NCBI GenBank assembly: GCA_032358255.1
Contig: JAULBX010029488.1
Span: 124,001-188,000, forward strand
DNA: 64,000 nucleotides
Direction: 5' to 3'
DNA from: Heterotrichella gracilis
Taxonomy: Eukaryota > Sar > Xanthophyceae > Tribonematales > Xanthonemataceae
The notes under the pieces are model-generated. The model had not been told where the DNA came from. It saw only the letters and a program-made list of their open reading frames with translations, and did not search any database. The translations under genes and the position numbers were made by a program. Of this stretch, positions 1 through 27,902 are shown piece after piece. Position 1 is the stretch's first letter. Every line of letters starts with the position of its first letter.

Positions 1-3000
1 CAGAAGGGCTGGTAGCACAGGATGGCCACTATCCAGCCAAAGAGGGTGGGTTCGGTGGAACGGACGTGGGAGTCGAACAGCCTGCGGGCAAGGGGGTGGA
101 GAGGGGGTTAAATGAGGCGCAGAGAAGAGGAGGAGAGGGTAGAGTAGGGGTTGGGTCTTGCGAGTTGGCTTAGGGTTGGACAGATGGAGAAGGGACTCGG
201 TAGGACATAGGCACCATCCAGCCAAAGAGGTGGGTTTGGGGGAGCGGACGCGGGAGTCAAACCGCCTGCAGGGTGAGGGATTATTGTGTCAAGCGGGTCC
301 CTACGGTAAGACATAGGGTCCGGCATTGGCAATAGGTAAACATATGAAATAATGATAATAGGACCTTTACTAATACCCTTGAGATAGGGTTCAGATGTAA
401 GGTGAGGTCTGTGTGCGTGCTATGTGCAGTTGCAGTTGCAGCTACATAGCCAGGCGCACGGAAGAGCAGGGGCATCTCAGTATTTGCGACTCACACCCAG
501 TCTGCACATGCAATACCATGGGATGCGCATAACACTCACTTGCATGCCAGGCTGTAGCCAAAGCACACTCACGGCATCCACCAAAACATCATATCATACA
601 AATGCACGTGCTTAGGTAGCCTACCCAATCTGCACGTGCACGCGCATTTTTGCACAGGCGACATCTGCACATGCAATACCATGGGATGCGCATGGACTCA
701 CTTGCAGCCCAGGCTTACCCAAAACACACCCAAGCTACATCCACCACAACACATCATTGTCGTACAGACGGGCTAGATGGCCTACATGTGAACAAATTGC
801 ACGTGCGACATCTACGCATATGGGATTTTTTGGTGGACACAGCACTCACTTGCATGCCAGGCTGTAGCCGAAGCACACCCATGCCACATCCACAAAGAAC
901 AGGGTGTCATACAGGAAGCTGTACAGGCGCATGAAGGACAGGTCGCCGTCCCAGTACAGGTGCCAGATCTCAACCACATTGTTCTCGTAATCCTGCAAGG
1001 ACGGCATAATGATAAACGCGTTTATCTTCCATTACTATTAGTATTGGTAAAACGATATCAACTACTTTACAAACAAACAAAACTTGGCACATTACCCCCG
1101 TAATCCTGCAAGGGAGCGGTATACATACTAGTATACAACAAAATCCAACAAGTGCTCATAGTCTGCAAGGAAGGGGTATAAATACGAACTATTTTACCAA
1201 TATTCAAAAAGTTGTTTCCGTAGTCCTGCGAGCAAGGGGCTCAGGCAATGAAACAAAAATGATTGAAATTTCCCGACCCTTCTCACTTGTTCCTGATGGC
1301 TGGACCAGCAATGAATCATTAAATCATTAAATCATTACATGCATGCAGACATGCTTTGTTCAAGGTAATGATCAGCCTTTACATGTGGTCAATGTCAATT
1401 GATCAGTTCAACACAATCTGTATAGAACATGCATAAAATGCGACTGCTTAAAACCTCATCAGCTGTCACACTTGATGCATGCCTTGTACACCTTGTGATG
1501 AGCTGATACAACGACATCGGCCAACTGTATAGACTGACTGTTGATCATTACCTTGGGCAAGACTTGCTTGATTTATTCTACTATTTTCTTGTCCATGAAA
1601 TGGACTAGGCCTAAGCGTGTCTTCTAATCTTTCTGTCTTTGCTGCAGGCACCTAACACCCCCCTTGCCCCCCTTCTATTACGTTATACCCCCTTTCATGT
1701 TCCTACTCTTGCCTTAATTTACAATCCGGCGGGGCGTTTGGGTTTGGTTTACAAGGGTCTCGGAGCACTGACTGCCGCCTGGGTAGGGTTCGTAAATTCT
1801 CCTGCAATTGTTCACTTGGTAGCCGTATATGGCCACATAGGTGATCACAGCGTTGTCCACGTCGTTATGGACAGCAGACGTGCTTGGCATTGGTGAAAGT
1901 CAACTGCCACCGCTGGCAAGTCCAATGGCGGTCCAACTGCCACCGGTGGCCACCCAACTGCCACCGACACCTAGCATGCCTAACGTTCAAAACGGCGCTG
2001 ACAACTCGTGATTGCCAGTGTGGCCATCTACAGCTACCAATTGGAACGCAGCTGCACTTGGCACATTCCAAATGGGCTATTGAGGAAGCAGATGCCCATG
2101 GTAAGGACTAGGTTAGCAAGTGTTTCAAATCTGGAAGGTTCACAAGTGGTGGTGGGCAGAATGCAGCTTTGAGGCTGGAAGTATTAATGCCAACACCCTT
2201 TCCAAATTGGGCAGAAAACAGTGTTTCACAAAAGTGACCCAAGCACACGGGGACTCTAGGCTACCTTTGCCCCAGGGAAACAAAAACCACCTAAACGAAA
2301 GGCATCTGACAGCACACCAACCAGCAGCACATACACAGCACTGGAGGCGGCACACCATTTCTACCCGCGCCGCCAACCAAAACCCTATCCCGCGCCGCCA
2401 ACCCAAACTCTCTCCGTTGACCAAGAAACTTAAAACAAAACTGTCCCAGGGATTTGGCCCCACCTGCAGCTGGTTGAAGAAGAATGAGCACATGAGCGGC
2501 AGGAAGAATGCCTTGACCAGGTACTCCAGTGCCATCTGGGTCCACCGCATGCCACTCACGTGCCCGCTGGTGGGCTGCCAGGTCACCACGCGGCCCAGGT
2601 TGTAGTACATGTCCTTCTTGCGGGACTCAACCTGGGGCACAAACACAGGCAGAAGATCGTTTTGCCCCTCACGTCAGCAGGCGCAGCAAATACCACATTC
2701 ACAAACCACATCCATTATGCACTGCACTGCCCCACAGCCACCCACCTGCCAGCCATCCACCACCACAAAGTACACCACCACCAGCAGGTAGATGACGGGG
2801 CCCAGCTTGCGCAGCATGTGGTACCAGTTGCGGTAGAAGGGCTGCTGGTACTCCACAAACACAAAGTAGCCAAAGCCGATGACTGACAGCAGGGTGGTGA
2901 AACCGACGAGCTTGAACTTAATGGTATGGGCGCAGGGGGTCCACCTGTGGGAAGGGGAGGAAAAATCAGATGTGAGCTGCAGCCACTGTGGGTAAAATGC

Positions 3001-6624: not shown

Positions 6625-7340
6625 TCACGATGATCGTCTGCATTTCTTAATTGGTCGCGCTGCCTCAGGCTCCGCGTCCCCTTCGCCTTCGTCGCCACCT
6701 TCTCCCCCCCCTAGCTCCAGCTGCACCGCCTCACCCAGCACTGTCTCCAGCCCTGGGTTCACCGGCTGCTGCAGGTGCACACGAGACCGGTAGCGGCGGG
6801 TCATTTCTGTGGCGGATTTACCAAACGCGCTCGCCACCTCCGCACTGTTGACCAACTCTATGTTCCTCACAGTCAGCTTCTCCAGGTGTGGCAAGCAGGG
6901 GAGGCGCAGCACGATGATGCCAAGGCACATGGAGTCATCCGTGGGTGCCTCACGGAAAGGTGGTCACAGCTCAAATTGCCCACATTCCAATTGACCAGCG
7001 CACTTGCGCGATGGAGGTCAGATTCATGCATTTGCTGCTGCTGGCCCACAAAGCGCACGTCCTTGCAGACATCCAGCGCCAGCTCCTGTAGCTGTGGTGG
7101 GGCCTGGAGCGCTTTGGTGAGGGGGAAGCCCGACCAGCAGGGCATGGACAAGCTGGTCAGGTGGCGCATGCTGCACATGTCTGCGCTCAGCTTGGCAAAG
7201 GGACCCTCGTCGCTGTAAGGTGCGTAGATGGTGAGGCACCGAAGGGAGTCAGGCAGGCTTTGGCCAGCAGCCTTGGTGAAGGGGAAATACTCCTGTGGAA
7301 AGGTGTACTCAGGGTCCGTCCAGCTGTTTTCATCCTCCTC
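6625..7340 (-). CDS. Leucine-rich-repeat-like protein, C-terminal part
   Basis: The minus strand reads EEEEDENSWTDPEYTFPQEY, then hydrophobic-patterned segments: SLPDSLRCLTIY, MRHLTSLSMPC, PPQLQELALDVC, and in the next frame LPCLPHLEKLTVRNIEL. This spacing resembles irregular LRRs of the F-box/LRR or DRC type, but I see no F-box. It ends with an acidic tail and a basic KKCRR segment at the stop at 6625. The frame shifts between about 6930 and 6965: LRR-like coding continues in a different frame, so there is either an unrecognised small intron or a frameshift. The 5' end is unresolved because a clear first exon is missing between 7340 and the TATA-like site near 7455. Confidence 0.45.
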
Positions 7341-7449
7341 CTCCTCAACACTAGACCCTAAACCCTAAACCAAATCCTGTCTGTCGAGCCTTGGCAACCG
7401 CTGTGTAAAAGGATTGAGGTTTTTCCCAGGGGCCCATGCCATGGGTACC

Positions 7450-7598: not shown

Positions 7599-10041
7599 CT
7601 AATGCTTCTGCGCACGAGCCTCCTTGCACGCCTGCTTGTGCTGGCGCCGGTGAGCATGCTGGCACCCGGTCCCGCAGTAATACACCAGCCCACACGCGCA
7701 CCTGCGCAGGGCAACATCCCCCCCCCCCCCCACCCCAGACCCGCCACACACTCTCCCCTTGTGGTGCTTGTGCTTGTGCTTCTTTGGGGTGGGGCGCTTG
7801 GTGGTGGTGGTGGTGGCGGCGGCGGGGGGAGCTCTTGTCTGATTGCCCTCACCCCTGTCTGCACTCATGCGTTCTGCGACCCGTACCAGTGCGGGGTCCT
7901 GCTGTTCAGGGAAAAACTCTTGTTTAGGGTCCAGGGAACAGGGTTTAGGGTCCAGGGCCCAGGGATCTAGCAGGACATGCAGTGTACGCGTGTTAAGCCT
8001 GGCAGCAAAACCATTGGTTAGGGTTTAGGGTTCTCGAGGGTGCACGGCAGCAACGGTGCACTTTGTGCATCCTCACCCAAGGAGGCGAAGTACATGGGGC
8101 GGAGCACATCCACCATGCGCCATTTTTCATGTGTTATCCCATCAGCCGCACAAGAAACCAATTGAAATCCCATCCTTGCAGAACTACTTAAACAAAAAGA
8201 ACACCTACAATCAATGCCTGCACAACCAAACCAACCGCATGCAACACCCCATCCACTGCACGGAGAACCACATTACACCACCGGTACATGCCCAAACATG
8301 TGCAAAATGCCCCATTCGCCACTGCCCTCAGCGCCTGCTGCATGACCCTAGGGTTGCGCAAGTACACCTCCATGTGCTCGGTTTGCACAGCCAGACGCAT
8401 GCCCCCCTGCGCCAACTGAGCTGGACTGAGACCAGACGGGGTGTACACTGGGATTGCGGTGCTGTATCCTCGGCGTGCGTCGTTGTATGCTGGGCTTGCG
8501 TGGTTGTATGCTGGGCTTGTGGCGGCGTATCCTTGCCTTGCGTCGTTGTATGCTGGGCGTGCGGCGCTGTATCCTCGACTAGCGGCGCCATACACTGGAC
8601 TTGTGGCACCATACGCTGGGCGTGCGGTGCCGTATCCTCGGAATGCATCGTTGTATGTTGGGCTTGTGGCGCCGTATGCTGGGCATGTGCGGCTGTATGC
8701 TGGGCTTCTGGGGCTGTATGCTGGACTCTCATTGCCGTAAACTGGGCTTGTGGGGCTGTATGCTGGGCTTCTGGGACTGTATGCTGGACTCTCATTGCCG
8801 TAAACTGGGCTTGTGGCGCCGTATGCTGGGCTTGTGGGACTGTATGCTGGGCTTGTGGGACTGTATGCTGGACTCTCATTGCCGTAAACTGGGCTTGAGG
8901 GGCTGTATGCTGGGCTTCTGGGGCTGTAGATCGGACTGCCGTCCTGCATAGGAACAGTAACGTCTTGGTCAGTCAGTTGGCAGCTCAAGAGGTCTTCTTC
9001 CAATACGTGCACCCTAAACCCTAAACCCTAAATGTACCAATTGCAACTGCGTGCTATTTCCAACGAACATGCGGCACAAGTAAAGCTGTCCTGGTGGTAG
9101 TGGTGGTCGTGTGTGCACATACGAGAAGGAAACAACATATTAGTCTTGGTGGTGGTGGTTGTACCTGCTTGTTCAGTCCAGGAGTGAAACAGGTGGTAGC
9201 TGCAAAGCCCGTATTTAGGGTTGCATGTCAGGGTCCAGGGTCCAGGATTAGGGTTCAAGGTGAGCTTGAGCGATGCGGGTTTCGGGGAAAATGGGTGTGC
9301 AGGCAAGGTTTGTTTATTGACACTCAAACCCGCTATGTTCTCAGACCGCGGTGCTCATCAGTTGCAACCTTGTATGATATGGTGAGGCAGTACCCTAAAC
9401 CCTAAACCCTGTGAGCTGCAGATGTTAGCGCCACTGGCGTTTGGCCTCTCCTGAACTCAGTTCAGCCCTTGCCTTCCTTACAAGGTTTTAACCCTACAGT
9501 GGTGGAAACAGCAACCCACCAATGGAGCCCTCATATGGTCATCCTCTTCAGACTCGAAGCATCTGGGACCGTATGCCCGACTTTTGGCACGGGAGGCTGG
9601 ACTATCGTCCTGCAGTGGAACAATATTTTTTTAGTTAAGTGGTTGGCAGTTCAATTTGGCTGAAAAGTTGGCTGGAGGTCGTCCGATACAATGTACACAC
9701 ATGCATGAGTCACGGCGTGCTACTTCCGAGACAAAGCATGAACGCAAAGCGGTCCTTCCATTGGCCACGGGTAGCGGTTGAACACATCTCTGAACTGTCT
9801 TCTCAGAAAGTTTCCTTCTGAGCAAGAACCAACAGCAAAGTGGTTGCTTTGTCGCAGGAAAGCAAATATGCATGCATGCGCAGGTCACAAAACACCCCTG
9901 TGAACACCCCTCGTGCCTATGATGCTTGAAGCCACCCGAGAGTTTGAATCGTGGTAAAGGAAAGTTTTTAACACAAACATCGACAGCAAGGGTTCGTCTC
10001 GTCGCAAGCGTGGGTACCTGCTGCTGGTCGTGTTGCTCCAT
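7599..10041 (-). CDS. RNA polymerase II CTD-like heptad-repeat protein with partial MYND finger
   Basis: The central exon (about 8300-9010) encodes 24 consecutive heptads of the form xYSPxSP, including exact YSPTSPA units, then a segment with MEVYLRNPRVMQQAL. Two further exons join in phase: 8077-8174 (reads THEKWRMVDVLRPMYFASL) and 7741-7918 (FFPEQQDPALVRVAERM, then His/Lys-rich). The last exon, 7599-7701, gives CACGLVYYCGTGCQHAHRR and QHKQAC, the second half of a MYND zinc finger. The usual first CxxC pair is not evident. The heptads match the largest Pol II subunit's tail, but no other Pol II sequence is present, so this is a separate protein. A first exon at 10018-10041 (MEQHDQQQ, GTACCC donor) is possible, but its phase does not join directly. 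The end of the heptad exon is uncertain. Function unknown; the heptads could bind CTD-reading factors (inference). Confidence 0.55.
8428..8931 (-). repeat. 24 tandem CTD-like heptads (21-bp units)
   Basis: Units read IYSPRSP, AYSPSSP, VYGNESP, AYSPTSP, AYGATSP and so on, decaying toward the C-terminus into forms such as AYNDARQ and GYGTARP. Tyrosine at position 2 is kept in all 24 units. The DNA unit is 21 bp. Confidence 0.9.
9011..9033. repeat. Telomere-like CCCTAAA run
   Basis: Three consecutive CCCTAAA units immediately upstream (minus sense) of the heptad exon, supplying its probable acceptor TTTAG. Further short runs lie at 9391-9410, 7350-7368 and 8014-8032. Confidence 0.85.
9555..9665 (-). 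repeat. Degenerate copy of the heptad exon's 5' part
   Basis: The minus strand resembles 8930-9000 (GAACTGCCAAC, then GTTCC, then GCAGGACGATAGTCCAG), with many substitutions and loss of the repeat frame. It is an old partial duplication lying upstream of the real exon. Confidence 0.55.
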
Positions 10042-11383
10042 GTCTTCCTCCCCCCTGCAGAGCTTTATCAGCTCTGCCCTATCATAACAGTGTGATTAGT
10101 CGACGCCCAGGGCATTCAGGTGATCTGTCAGCTGCCTCAGGGATAGACTGTTCCAGTCCGTAGAACCCTGGCCGGGCACTTTAAAGATTGTCGATGCGAC
10201 ACGCAAGGAGGTACTCCCAACCTCCAGACTAGGCCCCCTTCCCGGCTTTCAAGACCGTGAACGAAGTGGTTTGTGCAACAGAACTCCCTCACAACAGACC
10301 TCCCTTGTTGTACGATACCTGCCAGTTCTTAAATAGGGTGACCCGCAAACTAATTTACGGTAATAATCACACGAACAGCTATTTCCCAAACGTCAGACCC
10401 ATCCTTCGAACTTACGTCAGTGTGAGTACGGGACAGGGCTGTAGTATACGTCCCAGTCACTGCTGGGCACTAAGCTGCGTCCTATTGTGCACTGTGTGGC
10501 ATATTGCTGCTTCCACGCCCAGCCCCCATGGGGATCTGTAGATAATGACGGTTTTCCCGCCATGCTTAGACCCTGTTCCGAGTCGGTGACCAACATCCCC
10601 TTAGCTGGGCAGGCAACTGTTGTTACATGGACAAGGGAAACAAAGTGAGTACTACGTACCCACTGACAATAGCACAACAGGTCATAAACATGCTGCAGCT
10701 GGCAGTAAACAAAAGAGGCGAAGGCACAACGTGTATGCCCCACCTGAGTTGGCAGCAATGACAAAGTCTGCAGCGCTTAGGCAAATACCCTGGCATTCCA
10801 GGTGCTACTCTACAATGCAAGGTGCGGGTCGGCCTAGTCAAGAGTCCTATCACCCATGCAACAGCAGTGCTTGCTGGTGAGCGGGTGAGGAGGTACCATA
10901 CCACAAGGGAGCATGCAAAATCGTGCTGGAAGCAACGTTAACTCGCCTGCTCTAAATGGTGCAGCACACCCACCACGGTAGGCCAGTCCACGGCACACCC
11001 CGCCGCCAGCCTCGCGAAATAGTTTTGGGTTTAGGCTCAAGGGGTAGGACAACCCTAAACTCTAAACCCTAAATCCGTTCATAGTACCCAGTTCTTAGCT
11101 GCTGGCACAGACTCACCCCCCTCCTTGCACAAGACCCGCTATCCCCTCCTCAGCCCCACAGACAACCCTTGGTTGTCCCCATTTCTCCTTGCTCCTCCCG
11201 CTATCGCTCCCTCCTGGACCGCCCCACACACAGCCCTGATCGCCGATCAGAATAACGATGAAAAGCCCCGGCTGCCGATCCATATTCCCTCCCAACTTGG
11301 CCGCACATGCTCAGGGGGACTAGAACATCATATTCCAGCCCCCCTGACGCATTCCCCCTGCCTCCCCGTTTCCCCCGCTGCTA
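10042..11383. other. No recognised gene
   Basis: Only short open frames without family resemblance. Telomere-like CCCTAAA runs occur near 11053-11080. 11100-11370 is C-rich. Confidence 0.4.
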
Positions 11384-14300
11384 TCACTCCCGCCTGGGCC
11401 GCACGCGCCGCCCCTGCTCGTCCCCACCCGACCCGTCATTTGGCTCAGGGCGCGATGCGGCGCCTGGGTGGCGTGGGCGGGTGTGCCCCCGCTCGTGGTT
11501 GTGCGTGGCGATGGTCTGCAGGATCTCAGCCTGCGGGGTGGTGGGCCGGGTGCATGTGGGTATGGTGGGGGGTGGCGAGTACGTGTGGGGAATGACATGT
11601 GGCGGGGGTTGCGTGGTTGAGGTGGCATGCGGTTGTTGCTGCATCCAACCGTTAGCTGGTGTTCATCCAGAAAACAAAAGCTCAAAAGCTCACTTGCAGC
11701 TGCCGGCAGCTAAACCCTTAACACCCAACCTCTAAACCCTAAGAGAAGCTCACCTGCAGCTGGGGGCAGCTGCCCACCATGTGCTGGTAGCCCTCAGACA
11801 CCATCACCGCCGCAAGGTGCTTGGACACAAAGTCAAGGCACACGCGCTTCAGCTCCTCGGCGTGGTTCTGCTCAGCAAGGGCAAGCGTGGTGGCGACGCT
11901 CTCAACCTGCGGGGTGCGGAAATGAGGGTGTAGGGTTTGGATCCTCAGCGTGGTTCTGCTCAGCCGGGGCAAGGGTGGTGGCAACGCTCTCAACCTGCGG
12001 GATGCGGGGTGCAAGATTAGCGAGCCAGCTAGGGTTGTGTTGGTTTTAAAACGATGCCCGCGCTCTCAACCTGCAAGGGCCAAGGCTTGCAGTGGTACCC
12101 ATGTGCAACCCAACATACCCCAATTAACCTCTGTCATGACCGTGCAATGAAAACATCCCCACCACCGCCCACCCACCTCAACCGTTTCGCACAGCCGTCT
12201 CTCACAGATGCGGCGCAGGCGCGTCAGCTGGAACCTGTCCCCCGCCACCAGCAGGTGCTGGGCCATGGCCACATCCAGATTCTGGCCCTCAAGCTCCTCC
12301 GGCAGGGTGTCGGCATACACGAAGTGCATGAGCGCTCGGAAGACTGGGGCTCGAATGTCTTCCAGGACCACCACTCCATCCTGGCCCTCGCGCATGGGGC
12401 CTCCCAGGAGTGCGCGGAAGACAGGGGACCGTGCCTGCACAGATAAAATTTTGAAATTACATGGATAAAATACGTTATTATAATCTTCTTCTTGGTGGGG
12501 AGTAAGGGCTGGTAAAGGGGAAAAGAGGGAGGATTTTGGAGGTAGAAGAGAAGGGACAGAAGACCTTTGAGCAAATGAAGTGCATGAGGCCGCGTGTTAT
12601 GTCAGAAAGTGGGGGGCTACTGGCTAGAAAACATACCTTGGGGTCTAGGTCCAAGTCTATCTGATTACCCTTGACGCAATTTAGGGTTTAGGGCCCGGGC
12701 GGTAGGGTTACCTGCAGTATGATCTTGTGCGCGTGCAGCTCCTCCTGCTCCACCTTGAATGTCACGTCGGCATTGTCGGGGTTGTCCAGCAGCAGGGCAA
12801 GCTCGGTGCCCAGGCTGTGGGGGGGGATGGGGATGACGGGGGCCTGGAGGAAGAGGGAGGAAAGAAGAGCGGGTCAACATCAAGCCAGGCTACGCGCAGG
12901 CCTTGAAAACACGCACATGGGGTCTTCCCCGCGCATGCAACAATGCATCGCTGCACATGAGTCCATTGCCGTGTGCATGTCTATTGCCACGCGCATGCCC
13001 ATTGCTGCAGCAACATGGATGCGGTGGTTGCACCACCTATGTCCCCTGCCACAAGACTGGCAGATTTGGTGCATACCCACGCCAGACCTTCACCCCTAGG
13101 GATACCAGCACATATGCAGCTTGCTGGTGCCCAGACCACACACCACATACCCACATACACCGTATGACCCCCAGCCCTAACTTCTCAACCTAAAAACCCA
13201 TCCCCGCTCCCACCAACCACCCACCTTTGGCGCCGCCGGCTGCGCCCCGCTCCTACTCAACGCGCCCCCCGATGACACCACCAGCTCAATCGTGTAGCGG
13301 ATGATGATGGTGTCATTCACCAGGTACCCGTTCTCGGGATTTTCCAGGGTCGAGCGCCGCACAAACTTGCGGTAGCCGTGGCAGTTGCGCGCGTTGGGGT
13401 CCTGGCGCGCACAGCTGATCTTGACTGCACCCTGCTCCCGCCGCCGGCCCTTCACCAGGTCCCGACCGCGGCCTGTGGGGTGCGAGGGAGTGTGTGGGTG
13501 AGCAATGTATGCATTTGGTGGTTGATACCCAGGGTTTGACCACACAGATGGCGTGCAACTCACTATCCCCACCACCCCTTTGTTTGCCCCACCAGCATGA
13601 ACTTGTGAAATGCGCACACCACCCTCCCCTCGCTGGCCCTCTCCCCCCACGAACCTCCACCATCACCATTACCACCAACACCGCGCCTCCATCACCCACC
13701 TGTTTGGTCCACCAGCGTGAATTTGTGGAAAGCGCGCACCACCCTCCCCTCGCTAGTGCTCACCACCCCCTGCGGGTTGTCGCCCTCCCCAATGAGTGCG
13801 ACAAACAGCGCGGCGTACTCGTTCTGCGGTAGGGGGTGGGGTGGGTGGGGTGAGGGGCGATAGGGGATTGGGGTCGAGGTGGCGGCGGGATGCTACAGGG
13901 GCACAATGCAAGCAAATACTTGTAGACGTTGTATTGGCTGGCTCTAAATAATGCAAGCAATCGTGTGCATACATTGTATTGGTTGGCTGTAACCCAGGGA
14001 AGCCTTGCAAAGCAAAAGTGGCACACCGTTTTGCGACGGACCACAAGTCAGGTATAGCAGCAGTTCAACGTATGTCATCGCAAAAAACACCTACCGACTG
14101 TTCTCGCCGGATGTGCTGCTGCGCCCCATGGTGGGCCACTGGCGCGGCAGCGGCCCCTGCAGCAGCCGGGGCGGCAGCTGCGGCGGGCGCGTTTGGGGGT
14201 ACAAAGGGAACCAGGGCGTGTGCGGCGCCTTGCGCGGCGGGGGCTGCGTGTGCCCTGGGGCCTGCCGCTGCAAGGGGGGGAGGGGGTTGGGGGGGAGATT

Positions 14301-16590: not shown

Positions 16591-19500
16591 ATGGCTTTCA
16601 GAGCACCCAATGCGCCTGAAAAGGACCTGGTGTGTGAGCAATGCGGAGAAGCCATCGAGGACCAGCAAGCCTACATAGAGTGCGAGTGCAACATCGATGC
16701 GTGCGAAGGGAACACCACCCTCCATAACTGGTAAGCACCGCCCACAAATGAAACCTCTGCTGTTAAACCACTAAACATCGAATCTTACCGCACTCGCTGA
16801 GTACCTTGGTTCCCCGTTTTGGGGCAGAGCTTTCCACACAGTGTATAGCTCACAGTGGCATAGTACCAATGAGAGACCCAATGAAGATCCCATGTGTGCC
16901 CAACTCTCTCTATCTGACTAGCGGCCACATACTCGCCTAACCTGGCTCATGCATACCCCAAAACTCCAGCAAAACTTCTCCAGAAGTTTTGGCATGCCGT
17001 GATGTGACTAGCATCGTGTCCCTTATGCATGGAAACGTCCATACTGGGTAAACTCTCCTACACCGTTCCCCTCCCCGTCCCAGGTGTGCCGAGGACTACC
17101 TGAGGCAAGGCAAGGGTGACAAAGGTGCAGGGGGAAACAGCAAAAAAAGGGACCAGCTCAAGGTACAGAGGAGGGTCAAAACCCTGTGTGTGTGCATGCG
17201 CCTGCTTCCAAAGCATGGTCGCATGCCGACTAACACTTTGTAGTATACAGCATGGCGTTGAATTTCACAAGAACAATGACTGTGGTGTGGGTGCACATCC
17301 TATTTGGTGAAAATTCGCCAATGCATGCTGTGGCCATGGGGAGATGCGTGGATGGGCTGTGGCATGCATGCCCATCACCCCCTGTGGGTGCTCACGCCAG
17401 ATTTAAGAGAACGCCATCGATGCCTCAGGTGTATACATGTCTAGTTATATTGCTGGAATGCATGTAACTAACTAACTAAATACCCGCAGGTGTACGCCAC
17501 CAAGAAGCCCTGGCTGTCCCTAGTGCGCCGCAAGTGCCCCCGGGGGAGGGGCAAGGTGGAGCGAGAGGGGGGCGAGTGCAAAGGGATCGTGGTTGAAGCC
17601 AACCTGCGGGATGAGCCCCGAGCTAAGAAGAAGAAGCCTGCTGCGCCGCCGCCACCGCTGCCCGCCCACCCGGCGCCTGGGCCCAAGCCGAAGCAGCCTG
17701 GGCCAAAGCCGGTGCCCAAGGTAGGTGAACAGGGGTTAGGGTTGGGGTTAAGGGTTAAAAGCACCTGAGCAATGCGAAGGCTGCACCATCACGGGGCCAC
17801 AGGACACCAACCACTCATCCCTTCTCCCCACCTAACATACCCACCCATTCTTACCCACCCGCAGGTCCAGCGCGCCCCCCGCGCCTCACATGCCGGCCAA
17901 GGCCAGGGGGCGGCACATGGTCACGGGATACACGACCACCATGGGATACACTGCTGACCTGGCAGAATGCAAGCAATAACAGATTGCCATCCACTCATCC
18001 CCTCTCCTCATCGAGAATACACACTCATTTGCCCCCCTTCCTGCCAACACCCCGCAGGTCCAGCGCGCTCCTCGCGCCTCACATGCAGGCCAGGGCCAGG
18101 GGGCTGCACCTGCGCAGCCTGTACAGCGTGCGCCTCCTTTGCCACACCCACCCAAGCGGGTGGTCAATGGCGGATGGTCAGGTGCGGGGCAGCACCCCTT
18201 GCTGCAGAGGAAACCCTTAACCCTATACAGTTTATATCCTAAACCATCACCTGTGCCACACCCACCCAAGCGGGTGGTCAATGGCGGATGGTCAGGTGCG
18301 GGGCCGCACCCCTTGCTGCAGAGGAAACCCTTAACCCTATACAGATTATATCCTAAACCCATCACCTGTGCCACACCCACCCAAGCAGGTGGTCAACGGC
18401 GGCTGGTCAGGTGCGGGGCCGCACCCTGAACCCTAAAGCTTACACTGCAAATCTGAAACCCTGCACATCACATTTGAACCCTACACTGTTCAACCTGCAC
18501 CATAAATCTTGCATTTTGGTAGACAATACCCCGATTCTCTGCTCATGCCATATCGGTAATTGTACTCTTAGTCATTTACGTTTACCCAAAGTCCGACGAG
18601 GAGTTTCCGGACCCCTACTGTGACGACGGTGCCGATCCCTACAGACCACCCAGTAGGCAACAACCCTAGACGCTGCTTTTGCCATAACTTGTACTGATCA
18701 TGATGCCCTACGTTTACCCTAATAGTACCCTAACTGCCCTGTGTTCGCCCTAATAATGCCTTGAACTTGTGCGCAGATGAGGAGATTTCTGACCCCTACA
18801 GTGATGATGGTGCCGCGCCCAACAGGCCACCCACCAACTCGGCAGACAGGTGCGCCTGGAACCCGCACATTAGGGTTTAGTTCACCCTCGTGAGGGTGGT
18901 GGTTCCCCTGCGTGCTGCGCAATACCAATACATTACAACTGCGCAAGAGAGTTCGGCCATGGGGTGCAGTACCCTACAATGACCCTAACATGTTGCACAC
19001 TCCTGCGAAAACCTTGGTGTGGTCGACCCTAGACAACCCAGCAAAGAGAAAAACCCTGTTGCGGTGGTGCAGCACTGGCAAAACACCCTAGCCCTGTGGT
19101 CTAGGGTGATCCCAGCTATCTAGTATGTCTGCATCACTGAACCCTACTGCATGGGGCAGCATTAAAAAAAACCTGACGTGCCGCGCATTGCGGACAGACA
19201 CCCTACTGTATGGGGCAGCATTGAGAAAAAAACCGTAGCATGCTGTGCATCACTGACAAAATTCTACTGTGTGTCGCAGCCTGGGGTTTGACAGCAGCGA
19301 TGAGGAGGGGGATGTGGGTGGTGGCGGGGTGTGGAGCTATGGCAAGCTGACTCCCGATGAGGTGGAGGCGGCGGTGGTGGCGGGGGCGGTGCCGCCTGAT
19401 TTCAGGTGGGGGGTGGGGGGAGGGTTGTAGGTGGGGGGGGGGGGAGGTTAATGGCGGATGAGGGTCAGGGTGAGGGGGGTAGCAGGGGGCTGTACCGCCT

Positions 19501-22500: not shown

Positions 22501-25500
22501 CCTGCCCAAAATCCGCAAGATCGCCGGCCAACCCCCCCGCCGCGCCGCCTCAGTTACCTCCCAGGGGAGTGAACATAGCAATCAAAGCCATGGGGGGGGA
22601 TACCCCTGGGTGGGTGGTGGGAGGGGGAGGGGGAGGGGCCGTCCCGGGGGTGGCGGCCAGTTTGAGAATCCCCGTAGAGCCGGGGTCCCATCTCCGAATG
22701 TGAATGGGCCCCTGCATGCGGGGGGGCAGAAGATTGTGCCCCAGTCTGTGCTCAACAACAAGATGCCGGTGGCCACTAGGAATGCTAAACACAAGGTAAA
22801 ACCCTAAACCCTAAATCCTGAACCCTAAGCCCTTATTAGACCAGTGTTAGCTTTAGGTAGCAAAAATGCTAGGCAATACCCTAGTCTCTGAATCCTGAAC
22901 CCTGGTCAGCGCACCGTAAGCAGACAATAGCAACTAAAGGATGCTAATGCGCCCTACACCGTGCCTTGGCAAGTCCATTCCAAGCTCACGCAGCCATTAC
23001 GAGTGCTGGGCGGAAGTTCATTGCAAACTCAAAGGAACCCACATGTGCATCAGCTCAAGGTTTAGGGTTTAGGGTTTTTGAGGTCGGCACGTGTGGATGG
23101 AATCGGCTGCCGCTAGGCACACAGGAGCTCCTTGAGGGGAAACCCTAGACACTAGACGTTGGCCATCGCAGATTCCGCCATTTGGCATTCGAGCATGGGG
23201 GGCATCCAGCCATTCCTCAAGACACATGAACAATTTGATTGCCCTGTCTTCCCCTGCAGGCTACTGGGTACCCCCACAAGCCCTTCTTCACCCTGTGCAA
23301 GATGTTCCTGCAAGGCATGTGCATCACCGTCAACTGCCCCTACGCACACGGGGAGGCCGAGCTGCTTGAGAGGCAAGCGGTGTACCGAGACATGCGTGCG
23401 GGGAAAGGGAAGATGCCGGGTGAGTCTATTTCTAAACTGGCTCTGTGGTACGGTACCTTTAGTCAGGGTGTAGGTGGAGGGTTATCTTCCAAGCATGGTG
23501 TACCGAGACATGGGTGCAGTCAAGGGGAAGCAGTCAGGGTGAGTTTGTAATTGTGCTGCGTATCAGATATTGAATTCCTTTATTCTAGTATATAAATAGA
23601 AATGAACTTTGTTTTCTGGCAAATAACTTGGTTGCGGCATTTCAAACTAAATCTTCAAACTAAATCTTTACATTATATGTTCCCTACTATGCTGCCACTG
23701 TATGTTTGCTCAGTACTGGATCGGAACAAAACAAGCTTGCCCCTTCTCAATAACCCCAGCAAAGGAGCGAGGAGCGCCAAGAATGGCTTTTTTCTTGATG
23801 CTGTCACCCTTGCAAAATCCTTGTCTTCTTTTCAAGCAAGCTGGGAACTAAATCATGATTTCAAGCCGCATACTTAAATTGCATTCCAATGTCACAGGTG
23901 GGGGCAGGAAGCCTGGGGGCACAGTCAATGCTTGGGACGATGGGGGCTCCCTGGCTGATCAGGTGGTGGATGCGATTACTCTACCGCCTGGCGTGGAGGA
24001 GTCCATTGGGCACATGGGGATTGATTGCTTAAAAAGGTGTGTAACAGTTTGTGAAGGGTGGCTTGGTGATATGATGAGGCGGATGCAAAATAGCATTTGG
24101 TTAGCAGCACTTGATTGAATAGCTCCAAAGCCCAGGTTAAAGAGCGGCTTTTGAGCAGGAATGCATCTCATTATGGAAGCTGACTTGTGCCGTTCACAAA
24201 CCGGAAAAAAATGGTGAAATGGACATCAACCCAAACCACATTCACACCCCTGTTGCAGGTTTAAGCGACTAGCCCATGGCCTAGCTGCAGGATCGGGTGT
24301 TGCTGCCCTCCTTTAACCACAACCCTAACCACGTGTGCAACCCTCGTCGTCGTTACAAACTCTATTTACACACCCGCCCCTGTTGCAGGTTTAAGTTGAA
24401 TAGCGCCATAGCCCAGTTGCGTGAGCTGGGTTTCTCGGGAGCCGACTGCGGCAAGGCGGCCAAGGCAGCGGGGGCAAAAGTGGAGCAGGCGGCGGGGTAC
24501 CTGGTGGAAGGAAATGTGAGGCATTTCAAATTGGAAATTGCATACTGTTCTTCAATCCAATGGTACCCATGCATCATTGTTGTCATTTCTGGGTCTGTAA
24601 CTTGGTGCTTTGACAGTGTGAGAGCTGTTAGGTGCCTGTGGGGACTTTTTGCGGCTAAAAACACAAACACTTTCCAAATAAATAAATACTGTGCTGCTGA
24701 AAGAAGCACGGATGTATTATGATATGGTAAACATGCGCTTATGCTGTGCATCATTTTTTCTCGTGAAAGTGATGCCAAGACTCTTGTCACGCCACATATA
24801 CCAGTGATGCCGGTAATAAAGAATGATGAATTATGACAACATGCAGGATACTTAATGCGTCAGGCGAAAACATTACTCCAGTTCAATCTCAGCATAGTCA
24901 TTATCCATCCTCAGTCTCACAATTCTGATAACATCCATTGCCCCCCCAGGTTCCCCCCGTTACTCGTGATATTGACGTCACCGCCGAAGCGATGAAAGTT
25001 GCCGAGGCTGCGCAGCTATTGGGCGCCTCACCCGATGATGTGCAGATGGCAGTGGTGATGGCGAATGGGGATCCCGATATGGCCATACAGGTGGGTGTAT
25101 GGCGGGTGGGGTTGGGCAGGGGACTGTTGATGAATAATGGGGAGATTTAGCCTGCAATCCAGGTGGCGGTGGTGGTGGTGGCGGCGGTGGTGGCGCTGCT
25201 GTTGGGTCCCGCACCCAATGATGTGTAGATGGCGGTGGTGTTGGATGATGGGGAATAATAGAGGGTGAATTACGAGGGAGGGTCATGTGGGTTGTTATCC
25301 CTCACTGAATAATATGCAGCCGTATCACCTGGACTTCCCCACAATGTGATAACAATTTGACCCTTTTCTCTGGCCCCAGGAGCTTCAGCAGCAGGTATAT
25401 GAGTACACCCAAGCAGACCTGGCTGCTGGCGGGCGCCTGGATGAGGGATGGACCCATGTGACAAATGAGAAAACTCCTCAAAAAACATGTTTTCCTTGGC

Positions 25501-27902
25501 CACAGCGGCAACCATTAACGAGTTCGCCATTCTGAAGAATGATAAGTAGGTACTAACAATCTTATATTACTCCCTTGCCCCCAGGAGCTTCAGCAGCAGG
25601 TATATGAGTACACCCAAGCAGACTTGGCTGCTGGCGGGCGCCTGGATGAGGGATGGACCCATGTGACAAATGAGAAAACTCCTCAAGAAACATGTTTTCC
25701 TTGGCCACAGCGGCAACCATTAACGGGTTCGCCATTCTGAAGAATGATAAGTAGGTACTAACAATCTTATATCACTCCCTTGCCCCCAGGAGCTTCAGCA
25801 GCAGGTATATGAGTACACCCAAGCAGACTTGGCTGCTGGCGGGCGCCTGGATGAGGGATGGACCCATGTGACAAATGAGAAAACTCCTCAAGAAACATGT
25901 TTTCCTTGGCCACAGCGGCAACCATTAACGGGTTCGCCATTCTGAAGAATGATAAGTAGGTACTAACAATCTTATATCACTCCCTTGCCCCCAGGAGCTT
26001 CAGCAGCAGGTATATGAGTACACCCAAGCAGACTTGGCTGCTGGCGTGCGCCTGGATGAGGGGTGGACCCACGTGGCCCCCAAGCACCACTCCTCCAGGC
26101 AGAGTACCCACTCCTCGCCAGCACCCTCAATGCGCGGGGGTGGGGGCGGTGGCGGGCGAGACTTTCAGAGCCCCAATGGTGGGTGGCAATACCAAGGGTG
26201 GTTATTCTTTTGCTGATGCACCCCTCGGCGCATGGCGTTTCACCCCTTGCCGCGCCTCATTGTGAGACGTTCCACTCCTTGGCCGCCACGACTTACAAAT
26301 CAAAGATTAGGCACAAGTCTTCTGGCAGTATTTTCATCTCATGTCTAAGCGGTGCCCGCATCCGTGTGTGTGAGGGGCTTCCCCCGGCCCTAACGTCTGA
26401 ACCCCAATCCCTCCCGTGCAGTTTGGGATATGCCCGGCGCCCAGGAACCGCATGTTGAAGGACAGCAGCAGCAGCAGCAGCAGCGGCAGGGGGGTAATGC
26501 GCATGCGGTGGAGGAGGAGGAATGGCAGGAGTGGCCTGAGGCATATGCAGGGTGGGTGACGTGGGGATATAGGGTTTAAATATAGGGTACAGGGTTTACT
26601 AATTGGGTGATGTGGAGGTGGAGTGGCACAATTGGCCTGGGGCGTATGAAGGGTAGGTGGCGTGTCTATTTAGGGTTTGGGGCTTAGGGTTTAGGGCTTA
26701 GGGTTTTTACATTTGGGTGATGTGGAGGAGGAGTGGCAAGAGTGGTCAGAGGCATATGCCGGGTGGGTGGCGTGGCAATTTAGGGTTTAGGGTTGAGTTC
26801 CTGCTGTTTTCAGGGATGCGGTGCGAGGCTACCTTGCTTTGCAGACAACGCAAGGCCTTGGAATGGTGTGGATCCAAGATTATGGCATGAAAACCATGCG
26901 AGGCATAGATCTGTAGCTATTGCGCTGAAATATGGTCAACCGGATGTGACGCCTTGCAGGGAGGCTCCACAAATCGAGTTTGAAGGGGAGGGAATCGACT
27001 TCGAGGGTGGGCATGATGAGCAAGGGGGGGATAATATTCAGCCTGCAAATGGCGTGGCAGCGCCTGAGGCCAGCTATGGAGCTCCAGCCGGTGATGGGGC
27101 GCAGGCGTCTGTTGGTGATAAGATTAATGGGGGTGGGGAGGATATGGGGAGGGAGGATGGGGCAACTGGGGATCAGCTGGGTGTGCCGGGACAGGGGGGC
27201 GATGCTACAGCGCAGCAAGAGGGAGCGTCAGACCCCGCCGCGGCTCCACCCACCACCGCATCCGCTTCTGCTATGCTCATAAGCACTTTATCCATTACCA
27301 CAGCACCATCACCAGAGGAGGGCGTTGAGGCAGCAACCACCCCTGGCGCCCTCCCCGCCCCCCCCACCCCCTTCCCCTTCTTGCCCCCCTCCTCAGCCAC
27401 AGCCACAGCAACACCCTCCACCCCCCCGCTCGCCAACACACCCCACCCCCTGCAAGGGCCCGCGCCTTCCTGCCTGTCCTCCAAACCCCTGGCCTCGGAA
27501 ATCGAAAACCCCGGGACCGCCACAGCCGGTATCTTGCACAGCATCCTGCTAGCTTCTCAACCCTCAGTGGAGGCGGGTACCCACACACCCACGCCACCAC
27601 CACCACCATCCACGTCCTTCATGGTGGGGGTCCTGCAGCGCACAGCCACCCCACCACCACCCCCACCACCCACCTCTTTCATGGTGGCAAGCCAGCAGCA
27701 GCACAGCAGTGCAATGGGGTCCCAGGCTGCGCCACATGGCACCCCAGGGATGCAGCCTGGTGCGCTGGCGTCACGCTTTTTGCCCATGGCGAGCTCTGTG
27801 GCGGCGCCTGTGGAGGTGGGTGGCGGGGGCGACGGCAGCGAGGGGGGTGGGTCGGACGATGAGGAGTTCCAAAACCTGCTGACCATGCTCAAATTTGGGT
27901 GA
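16591..27902 (+). CDS. Seven-CCCH zinc-finger protein with UBA-like domains
   Basis: Exons in phase: 16591-16730, 17084-17162, 17490-17720, 18058-18181, 18777-18849, 19280-19405, 20545-20708, 21349-21622, 21896-22121, 22433-22795, 23260-23419, 23898-24036, 24389-24515, 24950-25090, 25995-26178, 26422-26551, 26814 to about 26912 (end uncertain) and 26960-27902; about 1240 residues. The N-terminus is Cys-rich (CEQCGEAIEDQQAYIECEC) and followed by a basic region. Residues about 259-640 carry seven C-x7-10-C-x4-5-C-x3-H fingers, for example CPHVLAGSLCPNPSNCACAH and CKMFLQGMCITVNCPYAH, several joined by ALGxLPxxYK-like linkers. Two UBA-like segments follow (IAQLRELGFSGADCGKAAKA; AAQLLGASPDDVQMAVVMAN), then a polyQ run and a Pro/Gly-rich acidic tail. 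CCCH arrays of this kind usually bind RNA; the UBA segments suggest ubiquitin binding. Role unknown. Introns carry many partial exon copies. Confidence 0.75.
17858..18130 (+). repeat. Two copies of an exon start
   Basis: CCGCAGGTCCAGCGCGC and about 50 following bases occur at 17862 and again at 18054. The second copy joins its neighbours in phase; the first runs into stops and is probably intronic or an alternative acceptor. Confidence 0.75.
18139..18425 (+). repeat. Three tandem copies (about 115 bp) of an exon end plus donor
   Basis: The block encoding PHPPKRVVNGGWSG, its donor and the following intron start (with AACCCTTAACCCTATACAG) is repeated at about 18139, 18254 and 18370 with few differences, so it is fairly recent. 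Confidence 0.9.
18586..18849 (+). repeat. Two copies of an acidic exon
   Basis: 18586-18657 (DEEFPDPYCDDGADPYRPP) and 18777-18849 (DEEISDPYSDDGAAPNRPP) are diverged copies of one exon. Only the second fits the phase of the preceding exon. Confidence 0.75.
20084..20450 (+). repeat. Two decayed copies of the first CCCH-finger exon
   Basis: The exon start CAGGACCCAGTTCTGCC (true copy at 20542) has diverged relatives at 20084 (RTHICPS) and 20297 (RTRFCMH). Downstream similarity continues (CCAACTGCGCC, CACAGCTG), but both copies have lost the frame and key cysteine spacing. Confidence 0.65.
20640..21126 (+). repeat. Three copies of the first finger exon's 3' end
   Basis: The segment coding GVALGKLPPDFKLMFCHDMV plus its ACAG/GTAA-type donor appears at 20646 (coding), 20826 and 21057, each ending at a usable donor. 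The third copy has lost a few bases. Confidence 0.85.
21722..21786 (+). repeat. Duplicate finger exon in incompatible phase
   Basis: Encodes CLSSDRCPFGHGLHNLRLLP, nearly the same as the start of the true exon at 21896 (CLSGDRCPFAHGVHDLRLLA). It has both an acceptor and a donor, but ends in a phase that does not join the next exon, so including both would break the frame. Confidence 0.75.
24255..24300 (+). repeat. Copy of the UBA exon's acceptor
   Basis: CCTGTTGCAGGTTTAAG is present at 24252 and again at 24379, the true acceptor. The upstream copy is followed by only a short related stretch. Confidence 0.65.
25378..26070 (+). repeat. 205-bp tandem repeat carrying an exon (four copies of the exon start)
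   Basis: Exon starts lie at 25380, 25585, 25790 and 25995, exactly 205 bp apart and nearly identical. Each encodes ELQQQVYEYTQADLAAG. The last copy runs on into a longer exon; the first three meet a stop unless spliced at CAT/GTGACA, which would give 78-nt phase-0 exons. Confidence 0.92.
26500..26795 (+). repeat. Repeats of the EEEEWQEWPEAYA exon end with telomere-like spacers
   Basis: The block GTGGAGGAGGAGTGGCA..GAGTGG..GAGGCATATG plus GGGTGGGTG donor recurs near 26500 (coding), 26607 and 26719, separated by TTTAGGG-like runs. Confidence 0.8.

Follow-up and report, generated by a model that had tools for sequence, protein, structure and literature searches.

A tandem array of heptapeptide units resembling the CTD of RNA polymerase II is encoded on the minus strand of the window, i.e. 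the whole stretch of 64,000 nucleotides analysed here. Most probably, a 21-bp minisatellite was expanded locally in a degenerate, internally deleted copy of a SAP-like/MYND gene and gave rise to the array, and the resemblance to the CTD arose by convergence. Observed in the sequence are the duplication of an exon edge together with its intron acceptor, higher-order repeats, lesions of the gene copy, a separate RPB1 gene, and the absence of codon constraint across the array as a whole. Unequal exchange or replication slippage would have amplified a seed like SPAYGP already contained in the exon, and this would have occurred in a gene copy that was already free to drift. The period of 21 bp would keep any stop-free frame open, so that the heptad of proline, serine and tyrosine would persist and now drift. 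The copy would yield no working protein, or at most a truncated one. These results suggest that a CTD-like array may arise by local 21-bp expansion without any link to RPB1, and a match to the Rpb1 repeat profile alone is therefore no proof of CTD mimicry. If translated, the array would show, as a natural test, which features of the heptad are sufficient for CTD factors.

Structure of the heptad array

Twenty-four contiguous heptads of 21 bp each, without gaps, were found at positions 8928..8425 of the minus strand, the first tyrosine codon beginning at 8928 and unit 24 closing at 8425. Tyrosine is present in all units, encoded by 22 TAC and two TAT codons. The first-pass annotation had described exactly this, 24 tandem heptads with tyrosine in every one, but its coordinates (8428-8931) are one codon off the true ones (8425-8928). 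It had also noted a decay along the array and proposed local expansion, and both are borne out by the division into SP-rich and degenerate units (Table 1) and by the periods and near-identical units described below. Unit 24, YTPSGLS, is marginal as a heptad. Among units 1-23, three contain YSPTSP and seven YSPxSP, while SP is found at positions 5-6 in 15 and at positions 2-3 in seven. For positions 1-6 of these units, YSPTSP was matched at 83 of 138 places.

Table 1. Features of the array and its putative host gene in the window
Feature	Position	Strand	Remarks
SAP-like N-terminal domain relic	10054..10182	minus	GTG near usual Met position; in-frame TAA at 10096-10098
Copy 2 of 90-bp duplication	9565..9654	minus	intron end, acceptor, exon start DDSPASRAKSRAYGP
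Putative upstream exon DDSPASRAKSRAYGPRCFESEEDDHMRAPL	9520..9609	minus	in phase with array exon
Copy 1 of 90-bp duplication	8899..8988	minus	intron end, acceptor, start of array
Open part of putative array exon	8191..8943	minus	GCAG acceptor, heptads, then non-repeat stretch; stop just below 8191
SP-rich units 1-12 of array	8928-8677	minus	
Degenerate units 13-24 of array	8676-8425	minus	
Possible exon ...DGITHEKWRMVDVLRPMYFASL	8075..8165	minus	tentative; no paralogue found
C-terminal exon, degenerate MYND finger	7602..7874	minus	Pfam match ~7626-7721

Analysis of the array with TRF revealed a period of 21 bp (score 274, 8448-8928, 22.9 copies) and a higher-order period of 84 bp (score 338, 8653-8928), the higher-order copies being identical or nearly so. 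With tandem units and higher-order duplication, the array has the properties of a minisatellite. Like minisatellites with a whole number of codons per unit, it has several open frames; it differs from them in that it happens to spell a CTD-like peptide. A plus-strand frame over most of the array is even longer than the heptad frame (289 versus 279 aa). Since several frames are open because the period is divisible by three, the open heptad frame alone is no evidence. At the protein level, the heptad frame matched the Pfam family RNA_pol_Rpb1_R (PF05001) with 53.9 bits, above the cut-off of 20.3 as for RPB1-type CTD repeats, and RPB1 chains were the top matches in a PDB search. A low-complexity herpesvirus family was also matched, with 21.1 bits and below its own cut-off. 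Disorder is expected for the encoded stretch.

The RPB1 gene of the genome

The genome holding the window comprises 68.5 Mb. Proteins of the chlorophyll a/b-binding family are matched 43 times in it, which is the basis for calling it algal. Genome-wide scoring of all 24 candidates with the Rpb1 repeat profile showed that only two loci pass the cut-off, the window array and a locus on contig C297. The latter is the true RPB1 gene: domains 1, 2 and 5 match Pfam, and the best matches of one core exon are Pol II RPB1 chains. Its CTD is encoded in two exons, and 29 contiguous heptads match YSPTSP at 174 of 174 places in positions 1-6. YSPxSPxYSP pairs are the functional unit of the CTD; 31 such diheptads are present in the two RPB1 CTD exons versus three in the window array. 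In the window, no polymerase core domain was detected in six ORFs scanned around the array. The array cannot be part of RPB1, since that gene, including core domains and a CTD, is located on C297, and the initial statement that the array gene is not Pol II holds. The array shares with the RPB1 CTD seven-residue, tyrosine-first tandem units with SP pairs, but it lacks polymerase domains, matches the consensus far less well and resides in a lesioned gene copy. The CTD of yeast RPB1 is itself reported to be encoded by a 21-bp repeat, the DNA of which undergoes expansion and contraction (PMC4882425).

The array resides in a copy of a SAP-like/MYND gene

Judged by its motifs, the host of the array is one copy of a large, expanded algal gene family, the members of which start with a SAP-like motif and end with a MYND finger. 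"SAP-like" is a label given in this analysis, as the Pfam resemblance of the motif is below the cut-off. The MYND match in the C-terminal exon is partial, covering profile positions 7-39 of 39, and scores 31.5 bits (cut-off 22.7). Searches of the genome revealed 32 further matches to the SAP-like motif (33 including itself) and 58 further matches to the MYND exon (59 including itself). In eight paralogue pairs, identified by eye, the SAP-like motif is followed by MYND on the same strand at a distance of about 4.8-7.9 kb. Both motifs occur in the same order and on one strand in the window copy, with a gap of 2.2 kb. The partial MYND finger and the MYND-family context of the first-pass annotation are thus supported by the Pfam score and by the paralogues. 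One paralogue (L047, ~1153-1659, minus strand, contig C74) contains two tandem MYND fingers plus the remnant of a third one with a stop.

The chain of exons linking the array to the MYND finger was inferred from splice-like sites and the order in the paralogues, and the gene model of the window copy is uncertain. The putative exons at 9609-9520 and from 8943 onwards are mutually in phase and have usable splice sites, so that translation might begin 3' of the TAA codon. The stretch just 3' of the array matched only itself in the whole-genome search, and no convincing paralogue of it was found among the matches listed from 15 fetched loci. A search for literature on the family yielded nothing specific.

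Lesions of the window copy

Twelve of the 32 other SAP-like copies were aligned with that of the window. Eleven of these 12 carry Met a few residues before the motif where the window copy has Val (GTG), and all 12 code for a residue at the position of the TAA codon, one having a stop elsewhere in the motif. A middle domain of about 220 residues, for which no Pfam family was found, was detected at E 1e-34 or better in seven of 14 fetched paralogue loci, one of the seven being the source of the query itself, and more weakly in another one. Some of the loci are cut by contig ends, and the domain is not universal among the loci read. In the window, it had no match at E 1e-3; the best one between positions 7000 and 11500 had an E-value of 3.2. 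The sequence DHMRAPL in the exon at 9609-9520 resembles DHKxAPL in the middle domain of three paralogues, with insignificant E-values, and may be a scrap of this domain.

For the MYND finger, 15 full-length sequences from the fetched loci were compared, the best-scoring part of the 59 matches. Partial fingers, one of which carries a stop at the Trp position, were left out of the counts. Both cysteines of the first pair are kept in 13 of these 15 sequences, whereas one of them is changed to Ser in the window copy; Trp, kept in 15 of 15, is replaced by Arg (WPQH to RRQH). The combination of a Met start, an open first domain, the middle domain and a full first cysteine pair is accordingly not found in the window copy, which differs from its family further by the heptad array inside. 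These lesions are known from one assembly. Stops occur in five of 33 SAP-like and seven of 59 MYND-like matches, the window included, and although matches may run into introns, these numbers indicate that broken copies of the family are not rare. The MYND exon of the window copy is still open, and its mean dN/dS to eight paralogues is 0.47 versus 0.41 among those eight (eight of the 15 full-length fingers, chosen mostly as gap-free). Decay of the window copy, if any, is therefore recent or incomplete.

Selection within the array

Maintenance of the heptad of the kind seen in RPB1 should leave mainly silent differences between units. This is the case for the RPB1 CTD, for which dN/dS is 0.21 (bootstrap 0.15-0.30) in 29 contiguous, unselected heptads; an earlier set of 34 heptads, picked by a pattern fixing four positions, gave 0.22. 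Units 1-23 of the window array gave 0.94 (bootstrap 0.57-2.00), with unit 24 omitted, non-independent units treated as independent and bootstraps resampling units. Three of the five alternative frames yielded values lower than the heptad frame (0.70, 0.91 and 0.65). Codon constraint of the RPB1 type is thus not seen array-wide. The two halves of the array behave differently: in units 1-12 the heptad frame is stop-free and has the lowest dN/dS of the six frames (0.50, bootstrap 0.37-0.84), in units 13-23 the highest (1.32). The value for the SP-rich half may reflect some past constraint, or few events. Across the whole array, the heptad frame appears to be free of codon constraint, while the SP-rich half alone leans toward it. 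Within the SP-rich half, units with identical peptides have at most one nucleotide difference (0-1 nt), which indicates recent duplication; one other such pair, units 6 and 16, differs by four. In RPB1, same-peptide units differ by 4.6-5.7 nt (means).

Origin of the repeat

The start of the array and the start of the putative upstream exon, each with the preceding intron end and acceptor, lie in the two copies of a 90-bp duplication (Table 1), which are 68% identical (61/90). The intron part of the duplication alone scores above all 1000 block shuffles. Since the edge of the array exon duplicates the putative upstream exon reading DDSPASRAKSRAYGP, a seed of SP plus AY(G/S)P was present locally.

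A search for the 21-bp motif, with a pattern allowing up to two mismatches, revealed it on eight contigs besides that of the window, and the reversed pattern on none. Four of the eight were inspected. About four units of a related motif are present on C367 (L040, 5776-5871) and about two on C425 (L065), the latter in AT-rich DNA; both stretches look non-coding. C45 and C239 share just 27-29 bp with the array. The 21-bp motif may be a dispersed repeat. When the whole genome was searched with the array ORF (E 1e-3), only its own locus, RPB1 and the short stretch on C367 were obtained. The 14 fetched loci of MYND paralogues gave no match. Neither search thus revealed the array in a paralogue, and a family-wide feature is rejected for this genome. 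Homologues without the YSPxSP pattern had been named at the outset as evidence against a CTD mimic, and within the genome this is the situation encountered among the fetched MYND paralogues. Bacterial and archaeal genomes and viral contigs contained 18 and three pattern matches, respectively, none of them confirmed; the patterns are peculiar to the array, and the numbers therefore give no base rate of CTD-like arrays.

Mimicry, capture or linker

The first-pass annotation had raised the possibility of a working CTD mimic. In yeast, mimicry of the CTD by proteins other than Pol II is real: Trf4, Mpp6 and Sen1 carry CTD-mimicking NIMs, and binding to the CID of Nrd1 was measured for Trf4 and Sen1 and is cited for Mpp6 in two reports (PMC4186968, PMC7110113). 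The decoy idea is therefore sound in principle, yet the window locus lacks most of its signs. According to these reports, the yeast mimics are single short motifs, that of Trf4 consisting of acidic residues plus Tyr, whereas a whole array is predicted from the window. A truncated or re-started protein might be made, the SP-rich half of which would serve as a substrate of CTD kinases or a CID ligand and hence as a decoy or titrator. The three diheptads, the dN/dS of the SP-rich half and the yeast precedent speak for such a protein, but the lesions of start and first domain, the missing middle domain, the damaged finger, an array-wide dN/dS of about 1 and the searches for further array copies in the family, which revealed none, make it unlikely. 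A working mimic is not supported; a related 21-bp motif in DNA that looks non-coding also speaks against it, even if the SP-rich half leans otherwise. An ordinary low-complexity, disordered linker of an expressed MYND protein, unrelated to transcription, would fit the open and on average constrained MYND exon and the low-complexity stretch preceding the finger in some paralogues among the matches listed. As the same lesions apply and no fetched paralogue has a linker of tyrosine heptads, we regard this as quite improbable. It is very doubtful that transcription begins at a downstream start and yields a short MYND protein in which CTD kinases phosphorylate the SP-rich heptads. Such a decoy would have originated in a minisatellite, without descent from RPB1; if true, it would show the origin of a CTD from scratch. 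Searches of the literature, with thin coverage of subscription journals, revealed no CTD-length array outside RPB1, and nothing was found on CTD evolution in green algae.

Capture of a CTD coding fragment from RPB1, followed by decay, is favoured by the unit YSPTSPA common to both arrays, by the local alignment score of 65 between array and RPB1 CTD DNA, a value without shuffled control, by the distance of 3-9 nt between each window unit and its nearest RPB1 heptad, and by the RPB1 Ser2 codons, 11 of 29 of which are AGC. On the other hand, 27 of the 29 serine codons in the array belong to the AGY type while Ser5 codons of RPB1 are TCN in 27 of 29, which argues against capture of an RPB1 tail without being conclusive. 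No RPB1 core domain was found in the scanned ORFs beside the array, the edge of the array is a duplicate of its own upstream exon, and the repeat on C367 is closer to the window array than to RPB1 (local scores 46 and 34). Capture is accordingly judged to be highly improbable. The expansion of a minisatellite in a dying gene copy also has points against it, namely the dN/dS of units 1-12, the tyrosine in every unit, the open MYND exon and the in-phase exons.

Other features of the window

Telomere-like TTTAGGG/CCCTAAA motifs occur 65 times in the window, whereas base-shuffled sequences contain about 7 on average. Examples are located at ~9011-9033, 9392-9411 and 8017-8031, and some lie beside putative splice sites. 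On the minus strand, an open frame at 6873-7364 shows a weak leucine-rich-repeat resemblance (11.5 bits, below the cut-off), and the region 11740-13450 contains what we take to be exons of a MATH-BTB (BPM-type) protein. Two near-perfect tandem arrays were detected by TRF, one of 205 bp at 25374-26075 (3.4 copies, 98% matches) and one of 114 bp at 18136-18426 (2.5 copies, 96% matches).
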